Below are positions 4,813 to 21,853 of a DNA stretch of 21,853 nt, in pieces. Location of the stretch: assembly GCF_000003605.2 (NCBI RefSeq), contig NW_003139336.1, forward strand, positions 1-21,853, written 5' to 3'. Position numbers and translations under genes: made by a program. The DNA is from Saccoglossus kowalevskii (lineage: Eukaryota > Hemichordata > Enteropneusta > Harrimaniidae). The number at the start of each line of letters is the position of its first letter. Within the stretch, counting starts at the first letter, position 1. A model generated the notes under the pieces. That model saw only the letters and a list, made by a program, of their open reading frames with translations, did no database searches and was not told the DNA's origin.

Positions 4813-4896
4813 GATAAAAAAGAATCGAGTAGTGATGATTCAGATGATGAAAAGGATAAACCTTCAGTTCCACCAACAACTCCATCGAGGAAAGAG
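4813..4896 (+). CDS. PPP1R12A: MYPT1-like exon: acidic Ser/Asp tract
   Basis: A 28-codon exon, phase 0 at both ends. The acceptor is a pyrimidine-rich tract ending TTTTCTCAG and the donor is GAG|GTGAGAAT. The peptide starts DKKESSSDDSDDEKDKP and ends TPSRKE. It matches in position and character the acidic Ser-rich linker after the ankyrin repeats of vertebrate MYPT1, where SSS/acidic runs precede a TDKTKP-like stretch. The SSSDDSDDE run is a good casein kinase 2 type substrate by composition. The frame stays open upstream to a chance ATG at 4771 and runs past the donor, but both extensions lose the compositional signal, so I place the boundaries at the splice sites. Confidence 0.85.
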
Positions 4897-7800
4897 GTGA
4901 GAATGTTGTCATTCTCTAAACTTGACATCAAAAGTTCAAAGTTCAAACAGTGCATATGTGGTGTTCGGGAAATTTTGATGCGCTGGATCCATCTATGAAT
5001 TGCTTTGTTAGTCTCAGAAGTTAGGAGTTTACACTCATGTCAAGTGATATGATATTCAGTAGATCTTTAGATCTCGGTACCCTTTCTAGTGAAGCAGGCT
5101 GGGTATCAACAGAAGTGAGCTCTATAGATAATGTGTATATAGAAGAGTATGGAAGATTCTATCTATATACCCTAAGAGTTTGAAAACAGTGCACTTCCGG
5201 TCAATGAGTGTCGTCATTTTGTTTATTTTATTTTATTGTGCGTAATGAAACAGCTCATTCATGGTAAAACACCATTAGAATTTTGTTCAATGATAAGGCA
5301 ATTGTTTTCTGCTGGCAATGGACTGAAAATAGTTCAACTTTGAGTGTTTTTTTCCCCGTCGTTTTCATCAGCGGCGACACATGAATGATACGTTTGTATA
5401 ACACTTGGAAGGATAATCTGCAAATGAAATAAGAAATTATACAAATTCAGTCTGGACATGGCAATAAATACAAATACGTTGTTTATGAATAATTCCATTC
5501 CATACACCCGGAGTCACGGTTTAAACCGAAGGAAGAAATGCTTATCTAGTATTGGTCAATACTAACCCTGAACTGTGATTTGTCATTCTTTGTATGTCGT
5601 CTAGTGTTTATTGTCCAGAATGGTGACCCTATCGTCATGACTACAGCAAGCATTCTGCCATTAGCATCAGCATGAACTTTGACATTCACCCCTTAGCAAT
5701 TTGAACTTTGAACTTTGATTACATGGTGTATTTATTCAATTTATTGTACTTCACAAATCCTGGTACATAGCGTCAATCCCTTCATCACTCTTTTACAGGC
5801 AACTTCTTTTTTGAGTGTGTAATTTAAAACATAAATCTATTTTTTTCATTCATGCTTTTTTGCCTTTTTTCCCTTTATAGGCTCTGACTCAAGTTCTCAC
5901 TTCTTAACATTACTTGATATGGCTGTATATATTTTTGTAAATGCAAACAACTAATACTTTATCTATTTATTTATTTATTCATTTCTTTATTTATTTTTAT
6001 ATTTTGCTGACTCAATTTATTTTGCAAGGTGTTTTGTAATGTTTGTTTTATTGCTGATTTGTGTAATCATTAATCTAAAGGCACCGAGCTTCACGCCAAA
6101 ACCCCTTGTAAAACAAGAATCTGAGAAAAAAGATGAACAACCATCATGGAGGCAAGGCCGGAAGACTAGTAGTAGCGAATCAAATCGTAGCGAAGAGAGA
6201 ATTCCCCGCTCTGCATCAGCCCCACAAATGCCAACGACAGACAGGAAAAAGGTGAGAAAAGAAAAGCACTAATCCATAAACCAGCCACTGACTAAATGCA
6301 ATAAATGCATAATAACTTCAGCTTTTTCTTTGTTTCATAGCAACTCTTTTTCTCTTCTTATCCATCTAACTTTTACATTTGCCACCAGGTAGTTATTATA
6401 TTGTACCGTCCTTTGTTACTAATTTTGATTTCTTCTGTTTCTACAGCCTGAGGAAACGCGCACAAGTGATTCAGAGTCTGGGTAAGTGCCAGGTTTATCT
6501 CATGACAGGGCTTTATTTATATCTAGCATTTCAGATATATACTGGCACTAGTAAATCTTTGCGCCAAGGACTGATGTCTGACGTGGTTCGATTCAATCTT
6601 TTGCTTATGTCGGTTCTGCAGATTGTGATACATTTAGTAACTGAAGAACCCGAAACAGTGGCCAGAATGGGCTTGACATTTTTGTCCCCAGCAGTGACTT
6701 GTAACATGTTCACCACAATGCTTTTATGTGTCCCAAATTGACCAGTGATACAATGACCATGGTTCGTTTAGAAACTGCTCCCATTTTATAGTTAAAATCA
6801 ATACATGTATACAGTAACATAATTACAGTAGTATTTACTGTTAGACTCTGACAACATTAGCATAAAATGATTGCATGTGTACTTACTTGTGCATGCTTAT
6901 CTAATATTTAAAACTAAAGTTTACTGTTGGTAAATCTGTAACAACAGTACACTGCATCGGCATATGAGACAATTTCACATTATAAAAGCTGTAAAAGCCT
7001 ATTAAAAAAACTAAAATAAATCATTTCTACTTCGGCTCTTGCTCCAATCTATTTAAAATGTCTTCATAATGGTATGCAAAAAAAGCTATTTCATTTTAGG
7101 CAAACAAAATGATTTGTTTCTGGTTTCTGTCAAAATACTTGGAAAATGAAAGTAAGAAGGGGGTTGAAGAAGGTTTTTTAGCTCCGCTGTCGACTTTGTC
7201 GAGCGGAGCTTATCATATGAGTGATTGTCCATCGTCCGTGTCAATGTTTTACTTTTTCGACTTCTTCTTGAAAACTACAAGCCTGAATGCTTTGATACTT
7301 GGTGTATATGTACCTTGGGTAGACCTCTCTCAGATTTGTTCATTTCATGATCATATCTTCAATTCTCTAATTTTGGTGAATATTTTTGTCATTTTTGGTA
7401 AAAAGTGATATTTTCGACTTGTTAAAAACCGCAAATCCAATTCCTTTGATAATACATATATAGGTACTACATGTGGACCTGTCTCAGATTTGTTCATTTT
7501 GTAATGATATCTTTAATTCTCTAATTTTAGTGAATATTTTTGTCATTTTTGGTAAAAAGTGATATTTTCGACTTCTTGTTAAAAACCACAAGTCCAATTG
7601 CTTTGATATTACATATATAGGTTCCACATGTGGACCACTCTCAGATTTGTTCATTTTGTTATGATATCGTCAATTCTCTAATTTTGGTGAATATTTTTGG
7701 TAAAAAGTGATATTTTTGACTTCTTGTTAAAAACGACAAGTCCAATTGCTTTGATATTATTAAATATATAGGTACTACATGTGGACCTCTCTCAGATTTG

Positions 7801-10800
7801 TTCATTTTGTAATGATATCTTAAATTATCTAATTTTGGTGAATATTTTTGTCATTTTTTGGTAAAAAGTGATATTTTCTTCTTGTTAAAAACCACAATCA
7901 TTTATGGTGAAAAATGATATTTTTGAATTCTTGTTGAAAACAGCAAGTCCCATTGCATTGATACTATACATATTGTTCATTTTCTAATGATATCTTCTGT
8001 TCTTTAATTGAAATGTGCATTGCTAACAGCGGGGCTATCTCAGCCGAGAGGCTGCTTGTTTATCAGTACAGACAAATTATTACAAGTACACATTGATGAG
8101 ACACAATTCATAGAATGATTGGTATAGGATTGCAAATAATCCATCTCATATGTTATCAAAATGTCATTATTCAGGTCTTAAGGTAGAGGCCTACTCATAA
8201 TTTTTTAGAAAGTTTTGTCATAAATCGCATAACGGTGTTCTTACGTTTATTATGCAAAATATTGTCCCATGGTATCATGAAGTAGCATTCTTTTGTGTGT
8301 TACAGTGACATTTTTTGAGAAACTATTTTTTTCAATAATCGCTAATAATTTTTAGAACAGTTCCATGTTAATGAAAAACAACATTTTTTAAAACCTGGAT
8401 TTTTTCGAAATAATTTACAGGACAACAATAAGCAACCCATCATTCACAATATACAATTTCTTCATGTCACCAGCGTGCAATTTAAGATATGGCATAATAT
8501 CTCTGCCATAGGAACCTGTGGTAAAATCATAATGGCCACTAAAAAAACAACTTATTTTAGGTCATTATCCTTATAATGCCCAGAGGTACAATTTATTGGA
8601 AAATAAATAAATTTTGTATATTTGCATTCATGAATAGGCTTCTACCTTAATACATGCTCCTGCAAAGTTACCAGAGTTTAACTATGTTTTGAACATCTCA
8701 GGACCAGGAACAATTATGTTTTAGCCTGATAAGATCAATATAGTCGTGAAAGAGATGATTTTAAATCCTAATTTTTTCATCAAATTGATGCTGTATTGGG
8801 TGTGCATGCTGTGTTCACTGGCTGCAAAGCTTCCATGCTACTCACATCATCCTTAAATCTTGTTGCAAAGCATCCCATTTGATGGGTATATGCAATTGAT
8901 AGGATGACCTGCCTTACCCATCTAACCACCAGCTGCATTGCGTACTACATGTGTCTTTTCTAACAGTTACACAAGAAGGAGGTGGGCCGACATGGAACGA
9001 GAGCGTGAACAGGAACGAGAAAAAGAAAAGGAGCGGGAACGGGAAAGGGAGAGGGAAATAGAAAAACAGAGAGAACAGGAAAGGCAGAAAGAAAAGGAAC
9101 AAGAGCGGCAACGAGAAAAAGAGCTTGAGAAAGAAAGAGAAAAAGAGCGTGAGAAAGAAAGAGAAAAAGAGCGTGAGAAAGAAAGAGAAAAAGAGCGCGA
9201 AAAGGAAAGGGAAAGGCTAAGGCAAAAGCAAAAGCTCACAGGAAGTTTCCGAGACAAGACTGTGACAACACTTACTGCAAAAAGGTATTCAAATTTGGTG
9301 TCATGGTAGGGTTATGCAGTCTTAAGACATGGAAAGACTAGCTCATTATAGTAGAATAAAATGATGACAGTATAGGATATCATCTTATGAAGTCTGAAGA
9401 GGCAGTCGTGCCATGGTGATGCAAAATCTGAAGGGACAGTATGGTGATGTAGTCTTAAGACACAGTACGAATAACTCAATGTAGTAGAACAAAGTGATGA
9501 CAAAATAGGATATCATCTTATGAAGTATGAAGTAATGCATTTCCGAACTGTAATGATAAATGACGGTGCTTTAACTCAAATTCCCAAATACACAAGAAAT
9601 ATATAATATAAATTCGCTGAAACCGGCTCTCGTCAATCCAAGGAATGCTACACTGTAATCACGTTTCTATTTTGAGTCTGTTAAGTTAAATTTGCTGTGA
9701 AAAGAAATGCTGAACAAGGAAGACACAGGATCTGAGGGAGGTTTTTCGAGAGGTCCATAGAAGTGTTTTTGCTTTCTAGATTGTTAGTTATAATTGTGTG
9801 AAGTTTACTGACTGGTTTGCATAATATAATTTGCCAATAAAGTGTGCAAATAACAACTAATAGTAGTATTCCCTTTCATCCAGTGTCCCTTATATAGTGG
9901 ATCATAGGTCTAAGGTTATATATTGCTGAACAAAATAAATTCCTTCAAGAGTTACAATTTCCATAGGCTTACATTTAAAAAGTGATTGCGACAATTTGCA
10001 TATTCATATTCCGGAACATATGTAGCTTTGTGCAGATATTTCAACTTGTGCTATTAAAATGATTTACTTGTATATATAGACACATTTTCATATGCATTTC
10101 ATGCCATTAATTTGATTATACAAATTTCCTCTCACAGTGACTTTTAATCCTACAAATGAATTTTCTTCAGACCTGTTATTTGAATCCAGTATTGCTAATA
10201 CTATGATTTATTTCATCAATAAAAAGCAGGAATGTTAAAAACTTTTTAATCAATATCTATAGGCCATCATATATGACCCCTACCACAGAGGACACAGAGT
10301 CTGAAACACAACGTAGATCCAGGGCCAGAAGAGAACGTGCAACTAGAAGATCAACGCAGGTGAGAGAAGCTGCATCCTTCAGCACCTCATCTTTACCGGC
10401 TACATCACTAATTTGTCTCTTCTCTTTTTATGCATTAATTTCATCACTGCTCTTCTCTACCTATCTATTGCAATAACTACATCACTGCTCTTCTTTATCA
10501 GTGCATTCTGTTCTCAGTTCATATTTTTTTGCATGATGCTGCTAAGGGAGTAGAGTGAAAGTAAGGCTTGTGGGGAACAGTTGGAGATGCTGCTAAGAGA
10601 ATAGAGTGAAAGTAAGGCTTGTGGGGAACAGTTGGAGCTGCTGCTAAGGGAGTAGAGTGAAAGTAAGGCTTGTAGGGAACAGTTGGAGATGCTGCTAAGA
10701 GAATAGAGTGAAAGTAAGGCTTGTGGGGAACAGTTGGAGATGCTGCTAAGAGAATAGAGTGAAAGTAAGGCTTGTAGGGAACAGTTGGAGATGCTGCTAA

Positions 10801-13800
10801 GAGAATAGAGTGAAAGTAAGGCTTGTAGGGAACAGTTGGAGATGCTGCTAAGAGAATAGAGTGAAAGTAAGGCTTGTAGGGAACAGTTGGTGATGCTGCT
10901 AAGAGAATAGAGTGAAAGTTAGGCTTATAGGGAACAGTTGGAGATGCTGCTAAGAGAATAGAGTGCAAGTAAGGTTTGTAGGGAACAGTTGGAGATGCTG
11001 CTAAGAGAATAGAGTGAAAGTAAGGCTTATAGGGAACAGTTGGTGATGCTGCTAAGAGAATAGAGTGAAAGTAAGGCTTGTAGGGAACAGTTGGTGATGC
11101 TGCTAAGAGAATAGAGTGGAAGTAAGGCTTGTGGGGAACAGTTGGAGATGCTGCTAAGAGAGTAGAGTGGAAGTAAGGCTTGTGGGAACAATTGGTGATG
11201 CGGCTAAGAGAATAGAGTGAAAGTTAGGCTTATAGGGAACAGTTGGTGATGCTTCTAAGAGAGTAGAGTGAAAGTAATGCTTGTAGGAAACAATTGGTGA
11301 TGCTGCTAAGAGAATAGAGTGAAAGTAAGGCTTGTGGGGAACAGTTAGAAATGCTGCTAAGAGAGTAGAGTGAAAGTAAGGCTTGTAGGGAACAGTTGGA
11401 GCTGCTGCTAAGAGAGTAGAGTGAAAGTAAGGCTTGTAGGGAACAGTTGGTGATGCTGCTAAGAGAATAGAGTGAAAGTAAGGCGTGTGGGGAACAGTTG
11501 GAGATGCTGCTAAGAGAGTAGAGTGGAAGTAAGGCGTGTGGGGAACAGTTGGAGATGCTGCTAAGAGAGTAGAGTGGAAGTAAGGCGTGTGGGGAACAGT
11601 TGGAGATGCTGCTAAGAGAGTAGAGTGGAAGTAAGGCTTGTGGGAACAATTGGTGGTGCGGCTAAGAGAATAGAGTGAAAGTTAGGCTTATAGGGAACAG
11701 TTGGTGATGCTTCTAAGAGAGTAGAGTGAAAGTAAGGCGTGTGGGGAACAGTTGGAGATGCTGCTAAGAGAGTAGAGTGAAAGTAAGTCTTGTAGGGAAC
11801 AGTTGGAGATGCTGCTAAGAGAATAGAATGAAAGTAAGGCTTGTGGGAACAATTGGTGGTGCGGCTAAGAGAATAGAGTGAAAGTTAGGCTTATAGGGAA
11901 CATTTGGTGTTGCTGCTAAGAGAATAGAGTGAAAGTAATGCTTGTAGGAAACAATTGGTGATGCTGCTAAGAGAGTAGAGTGAAAGTAAGTCTTGTAGGG
12001 AACAGTTGGAGATGCTGCTAAGAGAATAGAATGAAAGTAAGGCTTATAGGGAACAGTTGGAGATGCTGCTAAGGGAGTAGAGTGAAAGTTAGGCTTATAG
12101 GGAACAGTTGGTGATGCTGCTAAGAGAATAGAGTGGAAGTAAGGCTTATAGGGAACAGTTGGAGATGCTGCTAAGAGAGTAGAGTAGAAGTAAGGCTTGT
12201 GGGAACAGTTGGTGATGCGGCTAAGAGAATAGAGTGAAAGTTAGGCTTATAGGGAACAGTTGGTAATGCTGCTAAGAGAGTAGAGTGAAAGTAAGGCTTG
12301 TAGGGAACAGTTGGAGCTGCTGCTAAGAGAGTAGAGTGAAAGTAAGGCTTATAGGGAACAGTTGGTGATGCTGCTAAGAGAGTAGAGTGAAAGTAAGTCT
12401 TGTAGGGAACAGTTGGAGATGCTGCTAAGAGAGTAGAGTGAAAGTAAGTCTTGTAGGGAACAGTTGGAGATGCTGCTAAGAGAATAGAATGAAAGTAAGG
12501 CTTATAGGGAACAGTTGGAGATGCTGCTAAGGGAGTAGAGTGAAAGTTAGGCTTATAGGGAACAGTTGGTGATGCTGCTAAGAGAATAGAGTGGAAGTAA
12601 GGCTTATAGGGAACAGTTGGAGATGCTGCTAAGAGAGTAGAGTGGAAGTAAGGCTTGTGGGAACAGTTGGTGATGCGGCGAAGAGAATAGAGTGAAAGTT
12701 AGGCTTATAGGGAACAGTTGGTGATGCTGCTAAGAGAGTAGAGTGAAAGTAATGCTTGTAGGAAACAATTGGTGATGCTGCTAAGAGAGTAGAGTGAAAG
12801 TAAGGCTTGTAGGGAACAGTTGGAGCTGCTGCTAAGAGAGTAGAGTGAAAGTAAGGCTTATAGGGAACAGTTGGTGATGCTGCTAAGAGAGTAGAGTGAA
12901 AGTAAGGATTGTAGGAAACAATTGGTGATGCTGCTAAGAGAATAGAGTGAAAGTAAGGCTTGTAGGGAACAGTTGGAGATGCTGCTAAGAGAATAGAGTG
13001 AAAGTAAGGCGTGTGGGGAACAGTTGGAGATGCTGCTAAGAGAATAGAGTGAAATTAAGGCTTATGGGGAACAGTTAGAGATGCTGCTAAGAGAGTAGAG
13101 TGAAATTAAGGCTTGTGGGGAACAGTTAGAGATGCTGCTAAGAGAGTAGAGTGAAAGTAAGGCTTATAGGGAACAGTTGGAGATCCTGCTAAGAGAATAG
13201 AGTGAAAGTAATGCTTGTAGGAAACAATTGGTGATGCTGCTAAGAGAATAGAATGAAAGTAAGGCTTGTGGGGAACAGTTGGAGATGCTGCTAAGAGAGT
13301 AGAGTGAAATTAAGGCTTGTGGGGAACAGTTAGAGATGCTGCTAAGAGAGTAGAGTGAAAGTAAGGCTTATAGGGAACAGTTGGAGATGCTGCTAAGAGA
13401 ATAGAGTGAAAGTAAGGCTTGTAGGGAACAGTTAGAGATGCTGCTATAAGAATAGAGTGAAAGTAAAGCTTGTAGGAAACATAGTTATCTATATCATTGT
13501 CTTAAATTGTGTCAATGCCTTATAACATGCATGCAGTCATCTTGTCTCTAGCTTCACACATGCTTTTCAATTCAATACATTCCATTCTGTGAAAAAAGGT
13601 GTCAGTGCAGATGACAGTATTGTTGAGTCTACATCCTTATCTGTTAATTCAAAACGTGTTTTGATTATCAACATTTTAAAGGAAGTCTGATGTTATATTT
13701 GCATGCCTTAAAGTGAATTGTGTACAATGTTGCTTCCTAGGGGGTGACAGCAGAAGACTTAGAAAATGCTGAAACGCTGGTTGGACAAAAAGACAAGGTA

Positions 13801-16800
13801 GGAGGATCTACTGAGTTATCTCATTCATGTTCCAGGGCTATTAACATGTCTCTTTGCATTTACAGTTGATAAATTAGGCATTCATGTTGTATTTCAGAAT
13901 TCCTGCATACTTTAAATGTGTTGTTTTGCAAGTTTGTTATCTTAGCTTCACTCTACAAATGTATGTCTGTTGATTCAAGTGTAGCAAAAAATGTCTGTTC
14001 TTGTGAAATTGTTGGTACCGATATCTTCCAAGTAATTGAAAATTTGCAATAGATCAAAATAATTTATTGTTACAGTATTTAAATTAAAACTTTTAATTTC
14101 TTAGTGTTTTACAATATGTCATTGTTGCAACTATGATTTAGTTTTGATTATTGTAGTTTTCAAGGACTTCATGAATAATTAAAGATGGTTATAATGTGCG
14201 TTATTGCTGGCACTACATATCGCTTGTAGTGTTATTGCTTGTACTATCTCTCAATTATTGCTTGTACTATCTTATTACTTTGTCATTTAATATATGTATC
14301 TTATATCTTCTCTACGTTATTGTTTGTGCTATGTTGAAATATGTACATTATCGCTTTTACTACGTTATACATTGCACAAGTATATATCACTTGTACTACA
14401 GTAAAATACTTTATTTTCGCTTGGATTTCATTTTTCTTTTTTTGCTGAAGGGACGATTAAGTGAAAATGAAATCCAGCAAACATGCCTTTTTTCATACAT
14501 TTTACATTTATCTCGCCAAAAATCATTGAGAATAAGTTCCATACAAACGCCCAAAATGTATTTTCAGCAAAAATTCCAACTAAAATAAAGTGTTTTCCTG
14601 TATATTTTGTTATTGCTTGTGCTATGATAACAATGTAAGTAATTGGCCTTTGATACCCAACCCTGCGAGATTTAATAGATGTTCAAATGCAATAAAATGC
14701 ACAACATTTTTAAAACTGTCAGAGGAGAAGCAGGCAACTGAACATGATATATACTGTGTTCCAATCGTCTTTTTGCACAGGACACAAACAAACGAGCCGA
14801 GGAAAGAGAAACTACTGGTTACAGTCGTCGCTCTAGACTACGCGAGGAAGATGAGGTGAGATCATAACTTTAATTTTTTTCTTCCAGTCAGATAATATAC
14901 TGTTAAAAGGGAACCGCTCAATCCCATGGATTGCACCACATGCTCATGGGTAATTAACTCCGCCTCTGTCCACGAAGTAAATTAATTTTTATTAAGCTTG
15001 CTTACTCAAACTGTGATTGACAGGCCATTTTAAACTCTGGATTTTTAGTTGTCACTGCAGGTTTCGACCGAAAACAACAACTTTTATACATCAAAAGCCC
15101 AACCAGATGAGTTTAATCACTAACGTACTTATTCATGCCCCTGTAGAAATGTATTTGGAATCACAGCTTGATCTCCAAACATCGTAAATGGCACATTTGC
15201 CGGAGCTCCCGCCACGATGTGAGCGGCTTGGTTCGAATTAGCATACTAATTGCGGTGGCCATCTTGCCCTTATTTATAGTATTGGTTCCCCTTATAGTAT
15301 TGGTTTAATTTCGGTTGCTAGGATTTTCTACAGTTTCATTACTTAATGGTGTTCATGAGGACATTATGCAAAAGTTGCTATGACCCTCAAATGAAACTTT
15401 GTTTCTAGCAAAATAAAAGCTGTATTTTAGCAGCAAATTAAAAGTACAGTTCATTGTACAGCTTTACTCCTGTCTCTACCATAATGACAGATAAAGTCAC
15501 TGGAAACTCACACAAATGTGAATTGATTCACAAAGATTCAGTTCTGTTCAAATTACTGCCTTCCAGAGTAGTTTTGAACAACTGCAAATCCAGATGTATC
15601 ATCATATGCTCTCTATAATTTGTGAATATTGAGACCATCAAATATTCTATGTATTAGTCCAGAAACCCCAATGAAGTTCTTTTTGTGCTGTTTCCTCATC
15701 GAGCTGTTTTCATCGGCTTCTATAGTGGCGTTCTACAGTAGCTGTTGCAGAGCCCGCACAGAGCCAATAGAAGTACATGGTACTGTGGTGCATGTCTTAG
15801 AAACGTGGAACGTTCTGTGACGTAGCTCCGCTTGAAGATAGTGCCAAATATAGATGCATGTGCACGTACACAGAATTTACGGAACATGTATGATGGCCTA
15901 TAAAGCAAACATTTCATACCAAGTCCTCATTTGCTCTTCGGTAGAGAGATTTCGTAGGAGTTAAAAATATTGTACTTGTATACAATACAATGCCTTAGTA
16001 TAGGGAATAATTCTAACTGAGAGATAAGTTTTACTTATAATAGTGCCTCCCAACGTAATAAGTGACTTGTGATAAATTAAGTTTCTTCATTTATATCTTT
16101 AACAGTAATTGGATGCAATGGAAAGAAACTCCATACTTTACATAGGTTGTACTATTGTATACGTTCTTACATTTAATGTGTGTACAATACCTAATCTACA
16201 CATTAACTTGTGATTATTATTTCATTTATAAAAACAAAATAACTTGGTATGGTGTAGAAACCCGGTGTTAAATTAATCCATTTGGTTTAAGTTGTTGTTT
16301 GTATCAAGACAACATTCTATTCAGTTTGTTTGAACACATTACAATAACTTTTTTCGGTTAGACAACTATGGACGATGTTGTCTTAACCTTTTTCGTTTTA
16401 AATTAATTGTTTGTATATTAATTAGTTATTTTGCATATTATTTAGTTTGTATCTGTTTAACAGCTGGTTTGTATTAAACATATTTGTGTATAGCCAGTTT
16501 CAATATTATCTTCAACATTGTCTCAACTTCCCACTTGCCATACAAAAAAAACTTTTTTAAAAGTTGGGTATCAGAAATTAACAAGGATGAAATTTCAAAT
16601 ACCATAATAGAAGTTCACATAAACCCAAAAATTGTATGCGTTTATCTGAAATGTGACTTATTTTGATTTACGTGTATGCTACAAATAAATCAAATATTGT
16701 ACATTTATTGACATCTATAGTCTACACTGAGTTTAGATGATAAGAGCCCGTTTAGATACAACTTGATTCTCTCTGCTGTGTTTGGCTAATCTTTATTCTT

Positions 16801-17074
16801 GTTTTCACAGGACACAAACAAAAGAGCTGAGGAAAGAGAAACTAGTGGTTACAGTCGTCGTTCTAGACTACGCGAGGAAGATGAGGTGAGATCACGACCT
16901 TCTAGTGGTTACACTCCACGGTATTCTAGTACTACTCCGAGTACAGCAACTTCTAGTCGACTCTCCGGCACTTCATACGGCAGCGGCACTTCTAGCTATT
17001 CTAGACCTAGTTCTACTAGTTCGTATCGGTCATCAACGGGTAGCTCGTACACGCCTTCATACCGGAGATACTAG
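4813..17074 (+). CDS. PPP1R12A: Myosin phosphatase targeting subunit (MYPT1-like), central to C-terminal exons, partial gene
   Basis: This is the multi-exon gene that explains the window. MYPT1 anchors the PP1 catalytic subunit to myosin II and other substrates; Rho-kinase (ROCK) phosphorylation of the subunit inhibits the holoenzyme and so raises myosin light-chain phosphorylation. Seven exons plus one duplicate join in frame, including split codons at two junctions (GG|T and AG|G). The joined protein runs through an acidic Ser/Asp tract, SWRQGRKT, RSASAP, YTRRRW, SYMTP and RRSTQGVT, in the same order as I recall them in vertebrate MYPT1/MYPT2. Absent here are the KVKF-type PP1 docking motif and ankyrin repeats, which should lie left of the window, and the C-terminal leucine zipper, which is either to the right or missing from the isoform ending at 17074. 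Many invertebrates have one ancestral PPP1R12 gene, so 12A versus 12B is a label only. The family call is firm; the isoform structure is inferred. Confidence 0.9.
4897..6080 (+). other. Intron with TTTA-type microsatellite
   Basis: A 1,184-nt GT..AG intron. It holds a TATT/TTTA-type microsatellite at about 5960-6000 and the palindrome-like tract GTATATAGA...TCTATCTATATAC around 5135-5170. It also carries two copies of the 13-mer AGTTCAAAGTTCA (4933-4945 on +, 5702-5714 on -). No other gene is visible. Confidence 0.75.
6081..6251 (+). CDS. PPP1R12A: MYPT1-like exon: SWRxGRKT and RSASAP motifs
   Basis: A 57-codon exon, phase 0-0, between a weak acceptor (TAATCTAAAG|GCACCG) and the donor AAG|GTGAGAAA. 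The N-terminal part (SFTPKPLVKQESEKKDEQ) precedes PSWRQGRKTSSS, which corresponds to the ESPATWRLGLRKTGS block of vertebrate MYPT1. RSASAPQM near the C-terminus corresponds to the conserved RSASSPR phosphorylation motif. The exon closes with TDRKK. The region is predicted to be disordered and rich in Ser/Thr sites. The acceptor has a poor polypyrimidine tract, so the exact 5' edge is less certain than the 3' edge, but phase agrees with the exon before it. Confidence 0.88.
6447..6481 (+). CDS. PPP1R12A: MYPT1-like microexon (35 nt)
   Basis: A very short exon with strong signals: acceptor TTCTGTTTCTACAG|CCT and donor GG|GTAAGTGC. It encodes PEETRTSDSES plus the first two bases of a Gly codon. 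That phase-2 end is completed exactly by the T that opens the exon at 8967, giving ...SESG-YTRRRW. Vertebrate MYPT1 has a comparable TSD...SSS-YTRRKW arrangement. The upstream intron is only 195 nt (6252-6446), the shortest seen here. The exon is too short to stand on its own; it is supported by the splice sites and by phase on both sides. Confidence 0.82.
6482..7175 (+). other. Start of the 2.5 kb intron, unannotated part
   Basis: The intron runs 6482-8966. Its first ~690 nt contain an open frame (6379-6741) that merely overlaps the microexon in another frame and has no recognisable domain. I see nothing else before the repeat element at 7180. Confidence 0.6.
7180..8060. mobile_element. Dispersed repeat element with a hairpin at each end and ~150-bp internal repeats
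   Basis: The left end is a perfect-arm hairpin at 7180-7210: AGCTCCGCT and CGAC pair with GTCG and AGCGGAGCT around a TTT loop, with one GT bulge. The right end is CAGCCGAGAGGCTG at 8041-8054, a 5-bp stem with a GAGA loop. Between them lie four good copies and one or two broken copies of a 151-157 bp unit; CAGATTTGTTCATT recurs at 7331, 7485, 7642 and 7793. The order hairpin, CCRTCGTCCGT, TTCGACTTCTTCTTGAAAAC matches a repeat type I remember from mollusc and other marine invertebrate DNA. No transposase is encoded. The 99-aa frame at 7109-7408 falls inside it and is not a gene. Confidence 0.6.
7256..7985 (+). repeat. ~154-bp tandem repeats inside the hairpin-capped element
   Basis: The unit runs from TTCGACTTCTTGTTAAAAAC through CAGATTTGTTCATTTTG to GGTAAAAAGTGATATT. 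Spacings between landmark copies are 154, 157 and 151 nt. The last units (about 7875-7985) are shortened by internal deletions. Confidence 0.85.
8178..8650. mobile_element. MITE-like element with 23-bp terminal inverted repeats and TTAA ends
   Basis: The left terminus begins TTAAGGTAGAGGCCTACTCA at 8178. The reverse complement of the right terminus (8628-8650) begins TTAAGGTAGAAGCCTATTCA, with 20 of 23 positions matching. TTAA stands at both outer edges, as expected for a piggyBac-type target-site duplication. The 473-bp interior has no transposase frame, so the copy would be non-autonomous. The superfamily is inferred from TTAA only. Confidence 0.7.
8967..9284 (+). CDS. PPP1R12A: MYPT1-like exon: YTRRRW motif followed by a long ER/K charged helix
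   Basis: A 318-nt exon, entered in phase 2 and left with AG| (two bases of a codon). The acceptor is TCTTTTCTAACAG and the donor AAAAG|GTATTC. It begins YTRRRWADMERE, matching the conserved YTRRKWEDD of vertebrate MYPT1. Roughly 75 residues follow made almost only of Glu, Arg and Lys, with some Gln (EREKEKERE style), then LRQKQKLTGSFRDKTVTTLTAK. The i to i+4 alternation of Glu with Arg/Lys is typical of a stable single alpha helix (ER/K helix) rather than a true coiled coil, because hydrophobic a/d positions are missing. Three near-identical 24-bp units at about 9127-9198 show that the tract grew by tandem duplication. The opposite-strand Ser/Phe/Cys-rich frame is a shadow of this codon pattern. 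Confidence 0.9.
9127..9198 (+). repeat. Coding 24-bp tandem repeat inside the ER/K helix
   Basis: Three consecutive 24-bp units start at about 9127, 9151 and 9175. Each encodes the octapeptide EKEREKER and they differ by only a base or so. Less regular GA-rich units flank them on both sides. Because 24 is a multiple of three, changes in copy number would lengthen or shorten the helix without shifting the frame. Confidence 0.85.
9285..10262 (+). other. Intron (978 nt) with a two-copy direct repeat
   Basis: GT..AG intron between the ER/K exon and the SYMTP exon. Besides the duplication at 9318-9532 it holds only AT-rich sequence without exons or transposon ends. Confidence 0.75.
9318..9532 (+). 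repeat. Two-copy ~82-bp direct repeat, 133-bp offset
   Basis: Copies at 9318-9400 and 9451-9532 both start AGTCTTAAGACA and share AGGATATCATCTTATGAAGT near their ends, with scattered substitutions between. The intervening 50 nt contain partial echoes (ATGGTGATG twice). It begins only about 33 nt after the exon's donor site. Confidence 0.8.
10263..10359 (+). CDS. PPP1R12A: MYPT1-like exon: SYMTP block and first half of the Rho-kinase site (RRSTQ)
   Basis: A 97-nt exon. Its first G completes the split codon from 9284 (AG|G, Arg), followed by 32 full codons. The acceptor is ATCTATAG and the donor CAG|GTGAGAGA. The peptide runs PSYMTPTTEDTESETQRR, then SRARRERATRRSTQ. This parallels the vertebrate RRRSYLTPVRDEESESQRK...RRSTQGV segment. 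RRST carries the equivalents of human Ser695 and Thr696, the PKA/PKG site and the ROCK/ZIPK inhibitory site. The Thr-Gln pair lies at the very end of the exon, so the residues after the phosphosite come from the exon at 13741. Confidence 0.92.
10360..13740 (+). other. 3.4 kb intron splitting the Rho-kinase site, mostly minisatellite
   Basis: Phase-0 intron between RRSTQ and GVT. About 87 percent of it is the 51-bp array. The 5' flank (10376-10530) is pyrimidine-rich with two copies of CATCACTGCTCTTCT (10442 and 10480). The 3' flank (13483-13740) is ordinary AT-rich sequence leading to the acceptor. Confidence 0.85.
10535..13482 (+). repeat. Large 51-bp minisatellite (about 58 copies) in the intron
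   Basis: The unit starts GATGCTGCTAAGAGAATAGA and continues GTGAAAGTAAGGCTTGTAGG GAACAGTTGGA, 51 bp in total. Copies are similar, with diagnostic variants: TAAGAGAGTAG, GTTAGGCTTATAG, GGCGTGTGGGG, TAGGAAACAATTGG, and a one-base-shorter form with GTGGGAACA and GCGGC. The + strand is strongly purine-rich, with few C. As 51 is a multiple of three, several minus-strand frames stay open for over 130 codons as 17-residue repeats; these are by-products of the period, not genes. Confidence 0.97.
13741..13797 (+). CDS. PPP1R12A: MYPT1-like exon: GVT continuation of the Rho-kinase inhibitory site
   Basis: A 19-codon exon, phase 0-0. The acceptor is TTGCTTCCTAG and the donor AAG|GTAGGA. The peptide GVTAEDLENAETLVGQKDK aligns directly with the vertebrate GVTLTDLQEAEKTIG stretch that follows RRSTQ, so the reconstituted site reads ATRRSTQGVTAEDL. 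This is the segment thought to engage the PP1 active site when the threonine is phosphorylated. A 3.4 kb intron filled with a minisatellite separates it from its other half. Confidence 0.92.
13798..14780 (+). other. Intron with a degenerate GTTATTGCTTGTACTAT-type repeat
   Basis: GT..AG intron of 983 nt. Between about 14200 and 14420, and again near 14610, a loose motif (TTATTGCTTGTACTAT and variants) recurs every 25-35 nt. The frames at 14196-14588 and 14590-14859 arise from this T-rich repeat; the second overlaps exon copy A in the wrong frame. Confidence 0.7.
14781..14855 (+). CDS. PPP1R12A: MYPT1-like exon copy A of a duplicated exon pair
   Basis: A 25-codon exon, phase 0-0, with acceptor CTTTTTGCACAG and donor GAG|GTGAGATC. 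The peptide is DTNKRAEERETTGYSRRSR followed by LREEDE. It differs from copy B (16811-16885) at only four bases out of 75; three are synonymous and one gives Thr instead of Ser. If the donor is not used, the frame stops after three more codons (VRS then TAA at 14865-14867), so this copy needs splicing to be useful. Downstream of the donor the similarity to copy B fades within about 16 nt, and two of the changes turn a CGA codon into TAA. Confidence 0.85.
14856..16810 (+). other. Intron between the two exon copies
   Basis: GT..AG intron of 1,955 nt if copies A and B are both used. The first ~450 nt include a possible inverted-repeat insertion (14903-15308) of higher G+C. The remainder is AT-rich, and I find no additional exon in the MYPT phase. 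Confidence 0.7.
14903..15308. mobile_element. Possible short inverted-repeat insertion
   Basis: The left edge TTAAAAGGGAACCGCTCAAT and the right edge ATTGGTTCCCCTTAT form imperfect inverted repeats around about 380 bp of sequence with higher G+C than its flanks. TTAA occurs at 14903-14906 and 15305-15308. The right end carries a tandem duplication of TTATAGTATTGGTT. The arms are short, so this is tentative. Confidence 0.35.
16811..17074 (+). CDS. PPP1R12A: MYPT1-like exon copy B with read-through to an alternative C-terminus
   Basis: The first 75 nt (16811-16885) duplicate copy A: DTNKRAEERETSGYSRRSR then LREEDE, after a TTGTTTTCACAG acceptor. The donor-like GAG|GTGAGATC is also present, so the exon could end at 16885 and splice on. 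Unlike copy A, the frame continues for 62 codons of Ser/Thr/Tyr/Arg/Gly/Pro-rich sequence (VRSRPSSGYTPRYSSTTPS at the start, SYTPSYRRY at the end) to TAG at 17072-17074. This tail is clearly richer in G+C than the flanking introns and resembles the YRPVSTSSSTTPSSS region after the same point in vertebrate MYPT1, so it is probably real coding sequence. The product would end without a leucine zipper. A possible internal donor (CGG|GTAGCT near 17039) could instead rescue a longer isoform. Confidence 0.8.
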   Translation, partial: DTNKRAEERETSGYSRRSRLREEDEVRSRPSSGYTPRYSSTTPSTATSSRLSGTSYGSGTSSYSRPSSTSSYRSSTGSSYTPSYRRY

Positions 17075-19820
17075 CTAATAACCCGCTTGTTGCACTTTCT
17101 TGATACTGAGCAGAAAGTACTAGACAATTCGTTTCATGCAATACAATTCCCCTGTACAACCTTATTGAGGGGTGCTGGCTCACCCTGAAGCCGATTCTCA
17201 GTCCCTCGAAGTCCCCATCTTATTATATCTATGTACAGGGTCATTTCTAAATGCATCTTTGAATTATGTCTACTTTCTGCTTGGACTTACAGCTTTTTAT
17301 TACTGCTGTCTTCTCAGTGCTTTTGTTGTGATGTTTTTTTTTGTTTTTTTTTGACCATATCAGGGCTAAGATGGAACACTTGAATAGCCAGGTACTGTGG
17401 GTGGTAGGACATTGTCATATGAACAATATTTCCAGTATTTTGGTCTCAGTCTGACGCTTGCTGGCGGATAACACTACTTACTTGCCTAATCAAGTGTAAC
17501 ATCTTAACAAAAAAAAAGTGAAAAAATGGGAAAAAATCTGGGGAGGGTATTCTTACTCAGTCTCCTGACTTGTGTTGTTTGAAGTGTGAAATGTCTTTTA
17601 ACTTCTTCCTGGAGTCGTCCCATTCCACTATAATCTAATTACATCTTTAAAGTGTACTGTAACATAATTGACGGTAAAACTTGACCCCTGACCTCTCGGT
17701 GTAAATGATCAATTATTGAAACTACCATAATGACACAAATGGGGACCCAAGGAAAATAGCGTTTGCAACATGGTGTATAAAAAATAACAATTCATTTCAT
17801 GTTTAGAGGTCACAGTTCAAGGGGTCATTCAAGGTAACTTGTGCCACATGTAAGTCTTAAAATGTGTACAGAAAAGCAGTTCTGCATTGAGAGTTCAAAG
17901 TTGACAGTTCAAAGTTCAAGAGATTATTACATGTGATTCAGTGTTGTTACCTATTGTACAGTGATGGAATTCTCTCTTTATTAGAATAAGGTCATAGGTC
18001 ACTAAACTAGGCTGCCTAAGTTAAAATAAAACATAGTAAGCAAAACATAAAAAAAAAAAGCTTTTGGTGGCAAATTTGGCTTTCTTAGGCATGTAGTCAG
18101 GGTTAGTTGGATTCGACAACTCGTGTAGTTTGACTTTTATTTTTAATTGGTTGCTTGCTATTTCTTTTCTCCTCTGTATAATCTATGAGTTTCTGCATTC
18201 ATTGTATCTGTTTTTTTCCATTTGATACACTGAAGTCAGTTCAGTATTGTAAAAAAAACACCAACCTTTTGTTCTTTTTATCCTTTACCAAGTTGTTGAA
18301 ACATCATTCCTCCCTTGTCCATATTGCCACCATACCATATGCTCCATCCCATCTTACCAGAATCAATCACTGCTCTATATACCTGTAATGCTTTTGCGTC
18401 TCCATGCTATTGCTCCCCGTCTCCCCCATGATCTTCTCCTCCCCCTTCCTCTATTTTGTGTGCAGTGTATATGTAATTTATATCCTTTTGTTGAATAAAA
18501 GTGACTCAGTTCGGAATGTTTCCATACCCTCTATCTTTTGCTTCTGGGTTCGTTTTTTCTGCATGTCTATTTTTCTTGCACTTACATGTACACACACAGC
18601 TTTCTTCTATCTTGAAACGTCTATGGTGATCTGATTACAGTGACTTCTAATCTGAGATTCACAACTTTTCTTGTATGGTTTTCTTGATTCTATTTGTCTG
18701 TTACTACTTTGCCTGAAGCTGTCAGCGCTTTGCATTATTGGTTTGCTAGTTCCTGCATGGATTATGCATTACTTTGCATGTTTGTTGTCACTTCCCTCCT
18801 TTCCTTGCTTGTTTCATTTCATTCATGCACTAATCACAATCTCCCCATGTGTATCAGTTGTCAGTTCTAGTCAGTTACCAAGTCTCATTAATATTTCCAT
18901 AATCATAAATAATCCTTAAAAAAAAAAATTACCGTTTTTATATCTAACATTTTGATGTGTGTTTACCCTGACACCCCTAATTCCTCCATAGTGGAATGAC
19001 CCATCGAGCCTGAATGATGGGGGTATTCCAAAACTGCTTGGAATGGGGGTTATGCTGTGTTGTACTAATAATTAGCTGTATTTCCTACTGTGAGGATTGT
19101 AATCATTGTTTGTAGTTTTCTATGTTGAGGGTGCTCTACTTCCTGAATCCAGAATGAGGCTTGCTGGCACATTATTAACCTAGTAATCTCATTGGATTCT
19201 GAAGGACGAATTACATTCCTTGCATTTTAAGAAGCAGGTGTTCAAGGCTATTGGATTGCTGGTCGTGCCTTACTTTGAAATCTGGAAGCAGAGTGCCCCC
19301 AAATATAGGAATTAGTTATAAAATAACTTGATTGATTACATTCAGAGCTTCATCCACCTCTGGATGTGTTGGCATCTGTTTGTCTGTCTTGGTATAAATA
19401 GTGCTATGTGTGTGGATTCCATAAAACGATGATTGTTGCTATTAACAGCATGAATTAACTTTTGTGACAGCAGAATCATAAAACACCATGTTGATGTTGT
19501 AATCTGGAAAAAGAATATGAACGCATTATTACTCATTGCATAAATTAGAACCAATTCTGACCAATCCAACTGCATACAGTTGCAACAGAGCTTAAATGGT
19601 TTTCTGAGTTAACCCAGTTTAAAAAAAATCATTGAAATGAGCAATCACTTTCAGGATCACTGAATTTTGAAAACCATAGTTACCCTGTTTGAATGCCCAC
19701 TGTATGTGCAGTGTGTTATACCAACTGAGTAGACTAAGAAAAGAATTATGTCACACATTGATGTAAAGTAATCATTAACTTAGACATTCTGAAAAACTTG
19801 TGTTTACTGTATGGGACTTG
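17075..19820 (+). other. Putative 3' UTR of the short isoform, or next intron
   Basis: No coding exon is recognisable. If the TAG at 17072 is used, this is 3' UTR followed by flank; AATAAA occurs at 18025-18030 and 18494-18499. A third AGTTCAAAGTTCA lies at 17906-17918. Frames at 17172, 18185, 18404 and 18671 are hydrophobic T-rich chance frames. The MYPT coiled-coil/leucine-zipper exons are not found here. Confidence 0.5.
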
Positions 19821-19828
19821 TATTAAAG

Positions 19829-19957
19829 CAGAAGTCGTCAACCTGCGCACACATGGGAATTGAGTCCCAAGTGACGATAACAACACATGTAGACGCTTGT
19901 TTGTGAACAATGACGCGCTATGGCCATCTGACGCATGCGCAAGTGACGACTCCCCCA
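19829..19957. mobile_element. ~130-bp inverted-repeat element, hAT-like or piggyBac-like MITE
   Basis: AGTCGTCAACCTGCGCA at 19833-19849 is mirrored by TGCGCAAGTGACGACT at 19936-19951 with one mismatch and one gap. It is an island of higher G+C than its flanks. The left end CAGAAGTCGTCAACCTGCG resembles the CAGGGGTCGGCAACC terminus of some hAT elements I recall. TTAA also occurs on both sides (19823-19826, 19960-19963), so the superfamily is undecided. A minus-strand 89-aa frame crosses it and is not a gene. Confidence 0.45.
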
Positions 19958-19963
19958 CTTTAA

Positions 19964-21853
19964 ACACTATGCAGAGTGAAGACTGACTCTGTAAAATGTT
20001 GTACTCCCAAAGCATCTATAGGGTTTAATTAAGTTTTGGCATATTTATATTATATAAAATATTTGATGGTCTGGGTATGCATGCATTGAGGGAGAATGAG
20101 AATTCTTCAGGATTCTGCGATTCGAATTACTGCATCTGGTAGTAACAGAAACAATTTTTTGTCATTCAATGTGTGTTGGGATGAAAAACCAAAATGAACA
20201 CTAGCTTCAAATGTGCCAAATAGTATTGAAATTTGACTATTATATATTACCCACAATTGGCTTATATTCAGACCATCAAATATGGTTAACATTTTCCAAG
20301 ACCTCAATGCTCTATGAACAGAGTTCAGCTGTGAAGTACAATATAATCACACTACATCTAATCAGTCTCAGTGATTCTGCTTTCTACACTTGCCAAAGAA
20401 GAAGAAAGGCTTTCGTGTGTCTGTCTAAAAACAACTGACATTTTTTGTCCTAAAAATCACTTATTGTATTTTGTTGACAAGTTTGTCGCAGTGAACATTT
20501 CACTTTGGACCTTTAAGACAGCAAGATTTAAAGAAGTCTTAAAAAAGCTGTTCTGATTTGTCATGTCAAGAAAATTGACAGTGATGAAAATTTAATGATT
20601 TACATTATCTACATTCAAGTCTGTATAACCCACCAAAATATCGCCAGTTTATAAAAAACGCTACCTCAGCTAAATTATTAAAGACAATGTACGAGTTAAA
20701 AATGAATGTATTAGTGTTTCTTAATCCATGTTTACCAAGTCAGTTACCATGGTTAAGCTAAATTAACTAATGCATGATATGTACAATGACGCGAGGTATA
20801 TTTATGATATTTGTTTGTTTGCAAATTCATTTTTCAAATGTTTACAAATGCATAGCGTGAACATCCTAATATTTTATCCTATTCTCACGAGCAAATATCC
20901 AGGCAATTTCACCTCCTGGCAATCAAAACCAATGAGAACAGCAGTTGTAAACTCTTAAAAAACTTTTGGGCAAATTAACTTCTGAACATGTGCAACATGT
21001 ATAAATGTTGTTGTTCAGGATTACCTCATAGTTGAGTTTGTGCTACGTTCTTGACTTTAGTCGTCTTCACCAGCTCTTCAATCGGTGCAGCTTATACTTT
21101 TATTTACACCCACACCATTAAATTATGGCAACTTTTGCTTGACATACCATTGAACACAATTTAGTGAGAGATTGAATCTGTCAGTATTTTATCATCAATT
21201 GATGTATCTTTGGATCATCTTCCTCAATGGCAATGGCATGTGCTAGGTGACTGTAAATCACTCTGATCATCTGATGCAATCCACTAAAACATTGCTGTAC
21301 AACAAGTGTTACTGTAAAATTAGTTTTATGATGGAGCTCTTGAAGTTAGTGAGGATTGATCTTTTATGACATTGCCGCCCTGCCCTACTTATGGTTTTAT
21401 GAGAAGTGTCTGTGAACCCATTACTGGTATCAATTTTATGCTTCAAAACACACTATTCATATAAAAACTAGAACCAAAGCAGTCTAACAAGTATTTAAAA
21501 CTAGGTCAGTAGTGATGTCTATCTTATTGAAAACCGAAAACTAAGTATTGTCAATGCCAACAAGTGAAAACTGTACAAGATAATAAAAACTTTACTGACG
21601 TTATTAAAAATTATAATCTAAAATCTATAATATTATTATCATCTTGTTTAAATTTGAATTTACATTTTCCAGTTGACCGAAATGTTTTGTATAAAATTAA
21701 TTGAAATGCAGTCAGTGAAAATTATTAAATTTTAAAAATGTCACTCACTAAGGTCTAAAAGTCGCACTGGCTTTCCCAAGTTTATTCTCGCACTGAACTC
21801 CATCGAATTTGGGTAATGGTATACAACTGTCACTCGCTGGGTTCAAAAGTCAA
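19964..21853. other. AT-rich sequence with no recognised gene
   Basis: Several short frames (20107-20307 minus, 20211-20438, 20371-20556, 20770-20958) overlap one another on both strands and show no domain, splice context or codon signal. A possible tandem repeat begins at 21740 and runs out of the window. Confidence 0.55.
21740..21853 (+). repeat. Start of a possible ~89-bp tandem repeat, cut by window end
   Basis: GTCACTCACTAAGGTCTAAA at 21740 and GTCACTCGCTGGGTTCAAA at 21829 are related and both lead into AAGTC. Only one full period and the start of a second are visible. Confidence 0.35.

Follow-up and report, generated by a model that had tools for sequence, protein, structure and literature searches.

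Tandem homologous exons are a well-described class (PMC9741552, PMC9013439). Exons Ab and 3 of U2AF1 are a case that resembles the locus reported here, being likewise a pair of short (67-nt) homologous exons in tandem, between which a small divergence has persisted throughout vertebrate evolution (PMC5224494). The U2AF1 exons are used mutually exclusively and their 67 nt are not a multiple of 3, whereas the two exon copies that we describe in a MYPT gene, hereafter copies A and B, are 75 nt long and keep the frame in any combination; moreover, copy B runs into a putative terminal extension, unlike Ab and 3 as they are portrayed in that text (PMC5224494). The mutually exclusive exons of a further study are likewise adjacent homologous exons within one gene, but the MYPT copies are almost identical in protein and the same use is only a candidate for them (PMC9013439).

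Alternative isoforms are also known from MYPT genes themselves. Vertebrate PPP1R12A likewise produces MYPT isoforms, by the cassette exons E13 and E14 of the central region and by E24, and inclusion of E24 in vertebrate MYPT1 leads to a shorter C-terminus without the leucine zipper (PMC9367544). There the short C-terminus comes from the frameshifting E24, whereas here it would come from a putative terminal exon that directly follows the first ROCK site, and the accessible account of PPP1R12A splice variants describes no tandem exon copy (PMC9367544). Similarly, composite terminal exons and intronic polyadenylation involve an internal donor which, when ignored, makes the exon the last one and truncates the coding region (PMC4227790), but the available portions of two sources on such exons make no mention of an upstream copy by which the internal exon would be freed (PMC4227790, PMC5928244). 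A survey of the literature by titles and abstract openings turned up no report of a tandem exon in MYPT, and none of an invertebrate MYPT truncated in such a way.

The MYPT Gene and the Exon Copies

The window, that is, the whole stretch of DNA that was analysed, is an entire small contig (C3055, 21853 bp, ending at 21853) of an assembly of 572 Mb, and it carries part of a MYPT (PPP1R12-type) gene on its forward strand (Table 1). The protein read across the ROCK-site exon and the following 57-nt exon matches PPP1R12A in the PDB (2kjy_A, E 0.0017, query residues 1-32), the sole chain matched at E up to 10 when the spliced MYPT context was used as query, and the match includes the ROCK inhibitory site, RRSTQGVT, by which a MYPT can be recognized. 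On the strength of this match, we assign the gene to the MYPT (PPP1R12-type) regulatory subunits of myosin phosphatase. The N-terminal RVxF motif and ankyrin repeats of such subunits were not seen in the contig. The joined exons, in a query that carried one surplus Arg at an exon joint, returned no Pfam family, and the whole window returned no Rfam match at the gathering threshold.

Several parts of the contig are repetitive. The exon at 8967-9284 encodes mostly Glu/Arg/Lys repeats and is built of 24-nt tandem units, while tandem repeats of ~154 bp occupy part of an intron (7254-7897) and have similar sequence in L004 (contig C1955). A 51-bp minisatellite of ~58 copies with 91% match (10535-13481) takes up the greater part of the intron that separates the ROCK-site exon from the 57-nt exon, and a 28-bp minisatellite of ~43 copies lies at the contig start (1-1190), where it is perhaps the reason for the contig end.

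Table 1. Features located in the window, with the basis of each placement.
Feature	Position	Strand	Basis
Ser/Asp-rich MYPT exon	4813-4896	+	sequence
Further MYPT exons	starts 6081, 6447, 8967	+	coordinates set by eye on sequence
MYPT exon ending in ROCK-site motif ...RRERATRRSTQ	10263-10359	+	splice-flanked open frame, start set by eye; motif match to PPP1R12A 2kjy_A
57-nt exon GVTAEDLENAETLVGQKDK, phase 0-0	13741-13797	+	sequence; mostly inside PPP1R12A match
Interspersed repeat with inverted ends (~205 nt), intron preceding copy A	14397-14602	.	genome matches, inverted repeat I1
Exon copy A, DTNKRAEERETTGYSRRSRLREEDE; read-through gives VRS, then stop	14781-14855	+	sequence, donor score
MITE-like interspersed repeat, TTAA at left end, 47 nt downstream of exon A	14903-15293	.	
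Exon copy B, DTNKRAEERETSGYSRRSRLREEDE; strong donor GTGAGA at 16886	16811-16885	+	sequence, donor score
In-frame extension of B, 62 codons, VRSRPSSGY...PSYRRY, stop TAG at 17072-17074	16886-17074	+	
Putative 3' UTR of short isoform	17075-18499	+	AATAAA at 18025, 18494

The original prediction had described the two copies as a duplication in the MYPT regulatory region near the ROCK site, with 71 of 75 bases identical, three synonymous changes and one Thr/Ser exchange, with phase 0-0 and an acceptor and donor on each copy, and with the frame kept whether zero, one or two copies are included, and on all of these points our analysis agrees with it. The copies lie just after the ROCK-site exons covered by the 2kjy_A match; the alignment places the synonymous differences in codons 5 (CGA/AGA), 6 (GCC/GCT) and 17 (CGC/CGT) and the replacement in codon 12 (ACT Thr in A, AGT Ser in B); and both copies are in phase 0, which keeps the frame in each case. 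Chance is excluded as a source of this likeness, because in every other ungapped 75-nt position along the forward strand of the window, A and B excepted, copy A matches at no more than 37/75 (mean 18.7, SD 3.9). As adjacent homologous exons in the same phase, each with its own splice sites, A and B constitute a tandem exon duplication.

Both acceptors are usable (TTTGCACAG for copy A, TTTTCACAG for copy B), and the copies share one strong donor, GAG/GTGAGAT, with the slash at the exon end. Scored with a simple consensus matrix, this donor reaches 9.84, a value equalled or exceeded by six of the 1457 GT sites on the forward strand, A and B counted; the donor of the 57-nt exon ranks 16th in the same set. 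The pyrimidine tract is longer in B (14/17 vs 12/17 in A), and B has a CTAAT branch-point-like motif at -25, with no YTNAY motif present within 100 nt of A. With its shorter pyrimidine tract and lack of such a motif, A is therefore apparently the weaker, conditional exon.

When the 572-Mb assembly was searched at the DNA level, the exon pair and the B extension matched on this contig only, the remaining two matches of one exon-pair search being to a repeat within the intron, and no second allele or paralogue of the exon pair was seen. The 12-mer CTAGTGGTTACA occurs twice in the putative composite exon B (16842-16853 and 16902-16913), with CTACTGGTTACA as its counterpart in copy A. The Thr/Ser difference falls within this repeated 12-mer, which could hint at local conversion.

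The description of a plain 75-nt duplicated exon, also part of the original prediction, suits both copies as such but is too narrow for B, the frame of which runs on for 62 codons past the donor. Read-through of copy A meets a stop after three codons, unlike that of B, and the predicted protein of the B extension is Ser/Thr/Tyr-rich (VRSRPSSGYTPRYSSTTPS...SYTPSYRRY). The extension has a GC content of 49%, vs 34% in the inter-copy intron, and 84% GC at second codon positions. At the composition of the inter-copy intron, 62 open codons would arise with a chance of ~0.012; the openness of the extension alone is nevertheless weak evidence, because a second forward frame is likewise open for 62 codons at almost the same place (16890-17078). 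The next best donor inside the extension scores 3.8, vs 9.8 at 16886, and a further AATAAA, at 21582, follows the two that lie in the putative 3' UTR. A frame that passes an internal donor and stays open up to a stop codon, followed by poly(A) signals, has the sequence pattern of a composite or alternative terminal exon. B is best read as the start of such an exon, and A as an internal duplicate of the first 75 nt of B.

We also compared the B tail with the Ser/Thr-rich region of human PPP1R12A. When B was held fixed and the tail shuffled, 104 of 1000 shuffles were as good, and homology of the tail to the central region of vertebrate PPP1R12A is not supported. Against the same region, 2 of 300 full shuffles of B plus tail were as good, as were 74 of 300 for the tail alone and 78 of 300 for B alone.

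Homology between the copies covers 100 nt at 92% identity (14772-14871 vs 16802-16901) and ends abruptly on both sides, the block consisting of ~9 nt upstream, the 75-nt exon and ~16 nt downstream, and flanks of at least 400 nt align no better than 60 shuffles. Nei-Gojobori counts for A vs B give a dS of 0.21 (approximate interval 0.04-0.68) and a dN of 0.017, values that are in line with protein-level constraint, though they derive from four changes only. In a simple simulation with 200-nt introns, sequences at a divergence of 0.21 were still clearly alignable (median score 190), and those at 0.68 did no better than the observed score of 22. If the introns were duplicated too, the copies would therefore be older than the point estimate of dS suggests; if only an exon-sized block (~100 nt) was copied, the introns should be unrelated whatever the age of the copies.

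The introns flanking the copies have also been rebuilt by insertions. The ~205-nt repeat matches at least 39 other places over about query positions 600-805 (40 scored of 1867 candidates), and the MITE-like repeat, which has terminal inverted repeats GGGAACC/GGTTCCCC and boundaries set against seven loci, matches at least 39 other genomic places (40 scored of 1456 candidates). The unrelated introns had been taken as a sign that selection or gene conversion holds the coding sequences together. That the introns are unrelated is borne out by flanks that align at shuffle level, but the step to selection or conversion is not established, because a duplication of ~100 nt needs no shared introns, because the introns hold different interspersed repeats, and because the dS interval includes values at which introns no longer align.

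Interpretation of the Exon Pair

The reading that we favor, at a probability of about one half, is that B forms the front of a composite or terminal exon, with A as an internal cassette, both stemming from a duplicated block of ~100 nt in the MYPT gene. The block, made up of 9 nt of the acceptor, the 75 coding nt and ~16 nt beyond, would have been duplicated within the gene. Where B is read through, translation would continue into the extension, the 57-nt exon would be followed by 87 more residues up to a C-terminal YRRY, and the transcript would use a poly(A) signal farther downstream. Copy A, severed from the extension, would be a pure internal cassette with a donor; its most likely junctions would place it as an extra 25-residue repeat before B or, in a putative long isoform, join it directly to exons that lie past the contig end. 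Transcripts that end at B and transcripts that go on would thus both contain the 25-residue RRSR/acidic cassette.

Tentatively, we further suggest that the duplication settles a conflict inherent in a composite exon, since the first 75 nt of the terminal exon, copied upstream, would provide an internal version of the same segment. A long isoform with the C-terminal coiled coil and a short one ending in YRRY could then both carry the 25-residue cassette, and the identity of the copies could be kept by this shared need.

One point against the composite reading is the donor of B, which is equal in strength to that of A, and B may also be a plain 75-nt exon with the extension only an intron. It is possible on these grounds, if somewhat doubtful, that A and B are plain tandem cassettes or mutually exclusive exons, used as alternative or additive 75-nt internal exons and joined to exons beyond the contig, with 16886-17071 as an intron. 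The two are alike in length, phase and donor, and 75 is divisible by 3, which leaves every combination in frame. Set against this, the 62 in-frame codons after B have a coding-like composition, unlike the sequence after A, and copies that differ by one Thr/Ser would give mutually exclusive use little to choose between.

Mutually exclusive splicing had been suggested for the pair, and we find no sequence support for it. The inter-copy intron, at 1955 nt, is too long for steric exclusion. Complementarity between introns of the docking/selector type was scored in three comparisons, each against 100 shuffles in two-base blocks, and gave scores of 27, 35 and 31, with 44, 2 and 25 of the 100 shuffles as good; intron pairing as a mechanism of mutual exclusion is thus at or near shuffle level, and we rejected it. 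The borderline case (2/100) pairs 15632-15656 of the inter-copy intron with 20048-20072 of the far 3' sequence. With the stop-bearing extension of B, the likely mechanism shifts from a swap of near-identical exons to a choice between an internal and a terminal exon.

The gene may instead end at B, with a terminal exon from 16811, an internal GTGAGA that is never a donor, and A as one extra 25-residue repeat under stepwise inclusion, an arrangement that we consider unlikely. The downstream AATAAA signals would suit it, and so would our searches for later exons and for the C-terminus. A simple scan of 14856-21700 for exons (phase 0 only, with set acceptor and donor thresholds) yielded five candidates, among which B was the best and the other four were not MYPT-like, and a six-frame scan for ROCK-site and coiled-coil words recovered only the known RRST; no recognisable later exon thus appears in the contig. 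A genome search with PF15898 (PRKG1_interact), which can miss split exons, gave two matches, both below the cut-off, and a control set also gave one weak match. The frame around one of them, on contig C203, looks on inspection by eye like that of a LINE ORF1-like protein. The other, on contig C645 (E 0.1, PF15898 positions 74-94), is a short EENQRLRDENAALIRE-like stretch resembling the end of the MYPT coiled coil; it lies in a 387-codon frame (L005 1369-2532, minus strand) that is otherwise not MYPT-like by eye and probably encodes another coiled-coil protein. Because PRKG1_interact was not found above the cut-off in the genome, the long isoform of our favored reading is unproven. An end of the gene at B would, however, be at odds with the C-terminal coiled coil present in well-studied MYPTs, and a six-frame family search may miss a C-terminal domain that is split among exons, as it is in vertebrates.

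A recent exon-only duplication of no consequence, in which A is young and rarely spliced, would agree with a dS interval that extends down to 0.04, with a homology block of ~100 nt and with the weak branch-point context of A, but is very improbable in view of the intact frame and splice sites of A and of the three synonymous changes among four. An assembly artefact might be suspected in a small contig with a 2.9-kb minisatellite and other arrays, but is scarcely credible, as four coding differences and unrelated introns with different repeats are not expected of a simple collapse or misjoin.

Implications

Exons duplicated in tandem and alternative last exons are each known kinds, and this locus seems to join the two in one place. 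If B is a composite or terminal exon and A its internal copy, the locus would show an exon duplication supplying internal and terminal versions of one protein segment. In that case, a truncated MYPT with the ROCK inhibitory site and without the coiled coil at its C-terminus would provide myosin phosphatase with a built-in alternative regulator, and through the exon pair the gene may produce proteins that differ in length, beyond the swapping of near-identical pieces.
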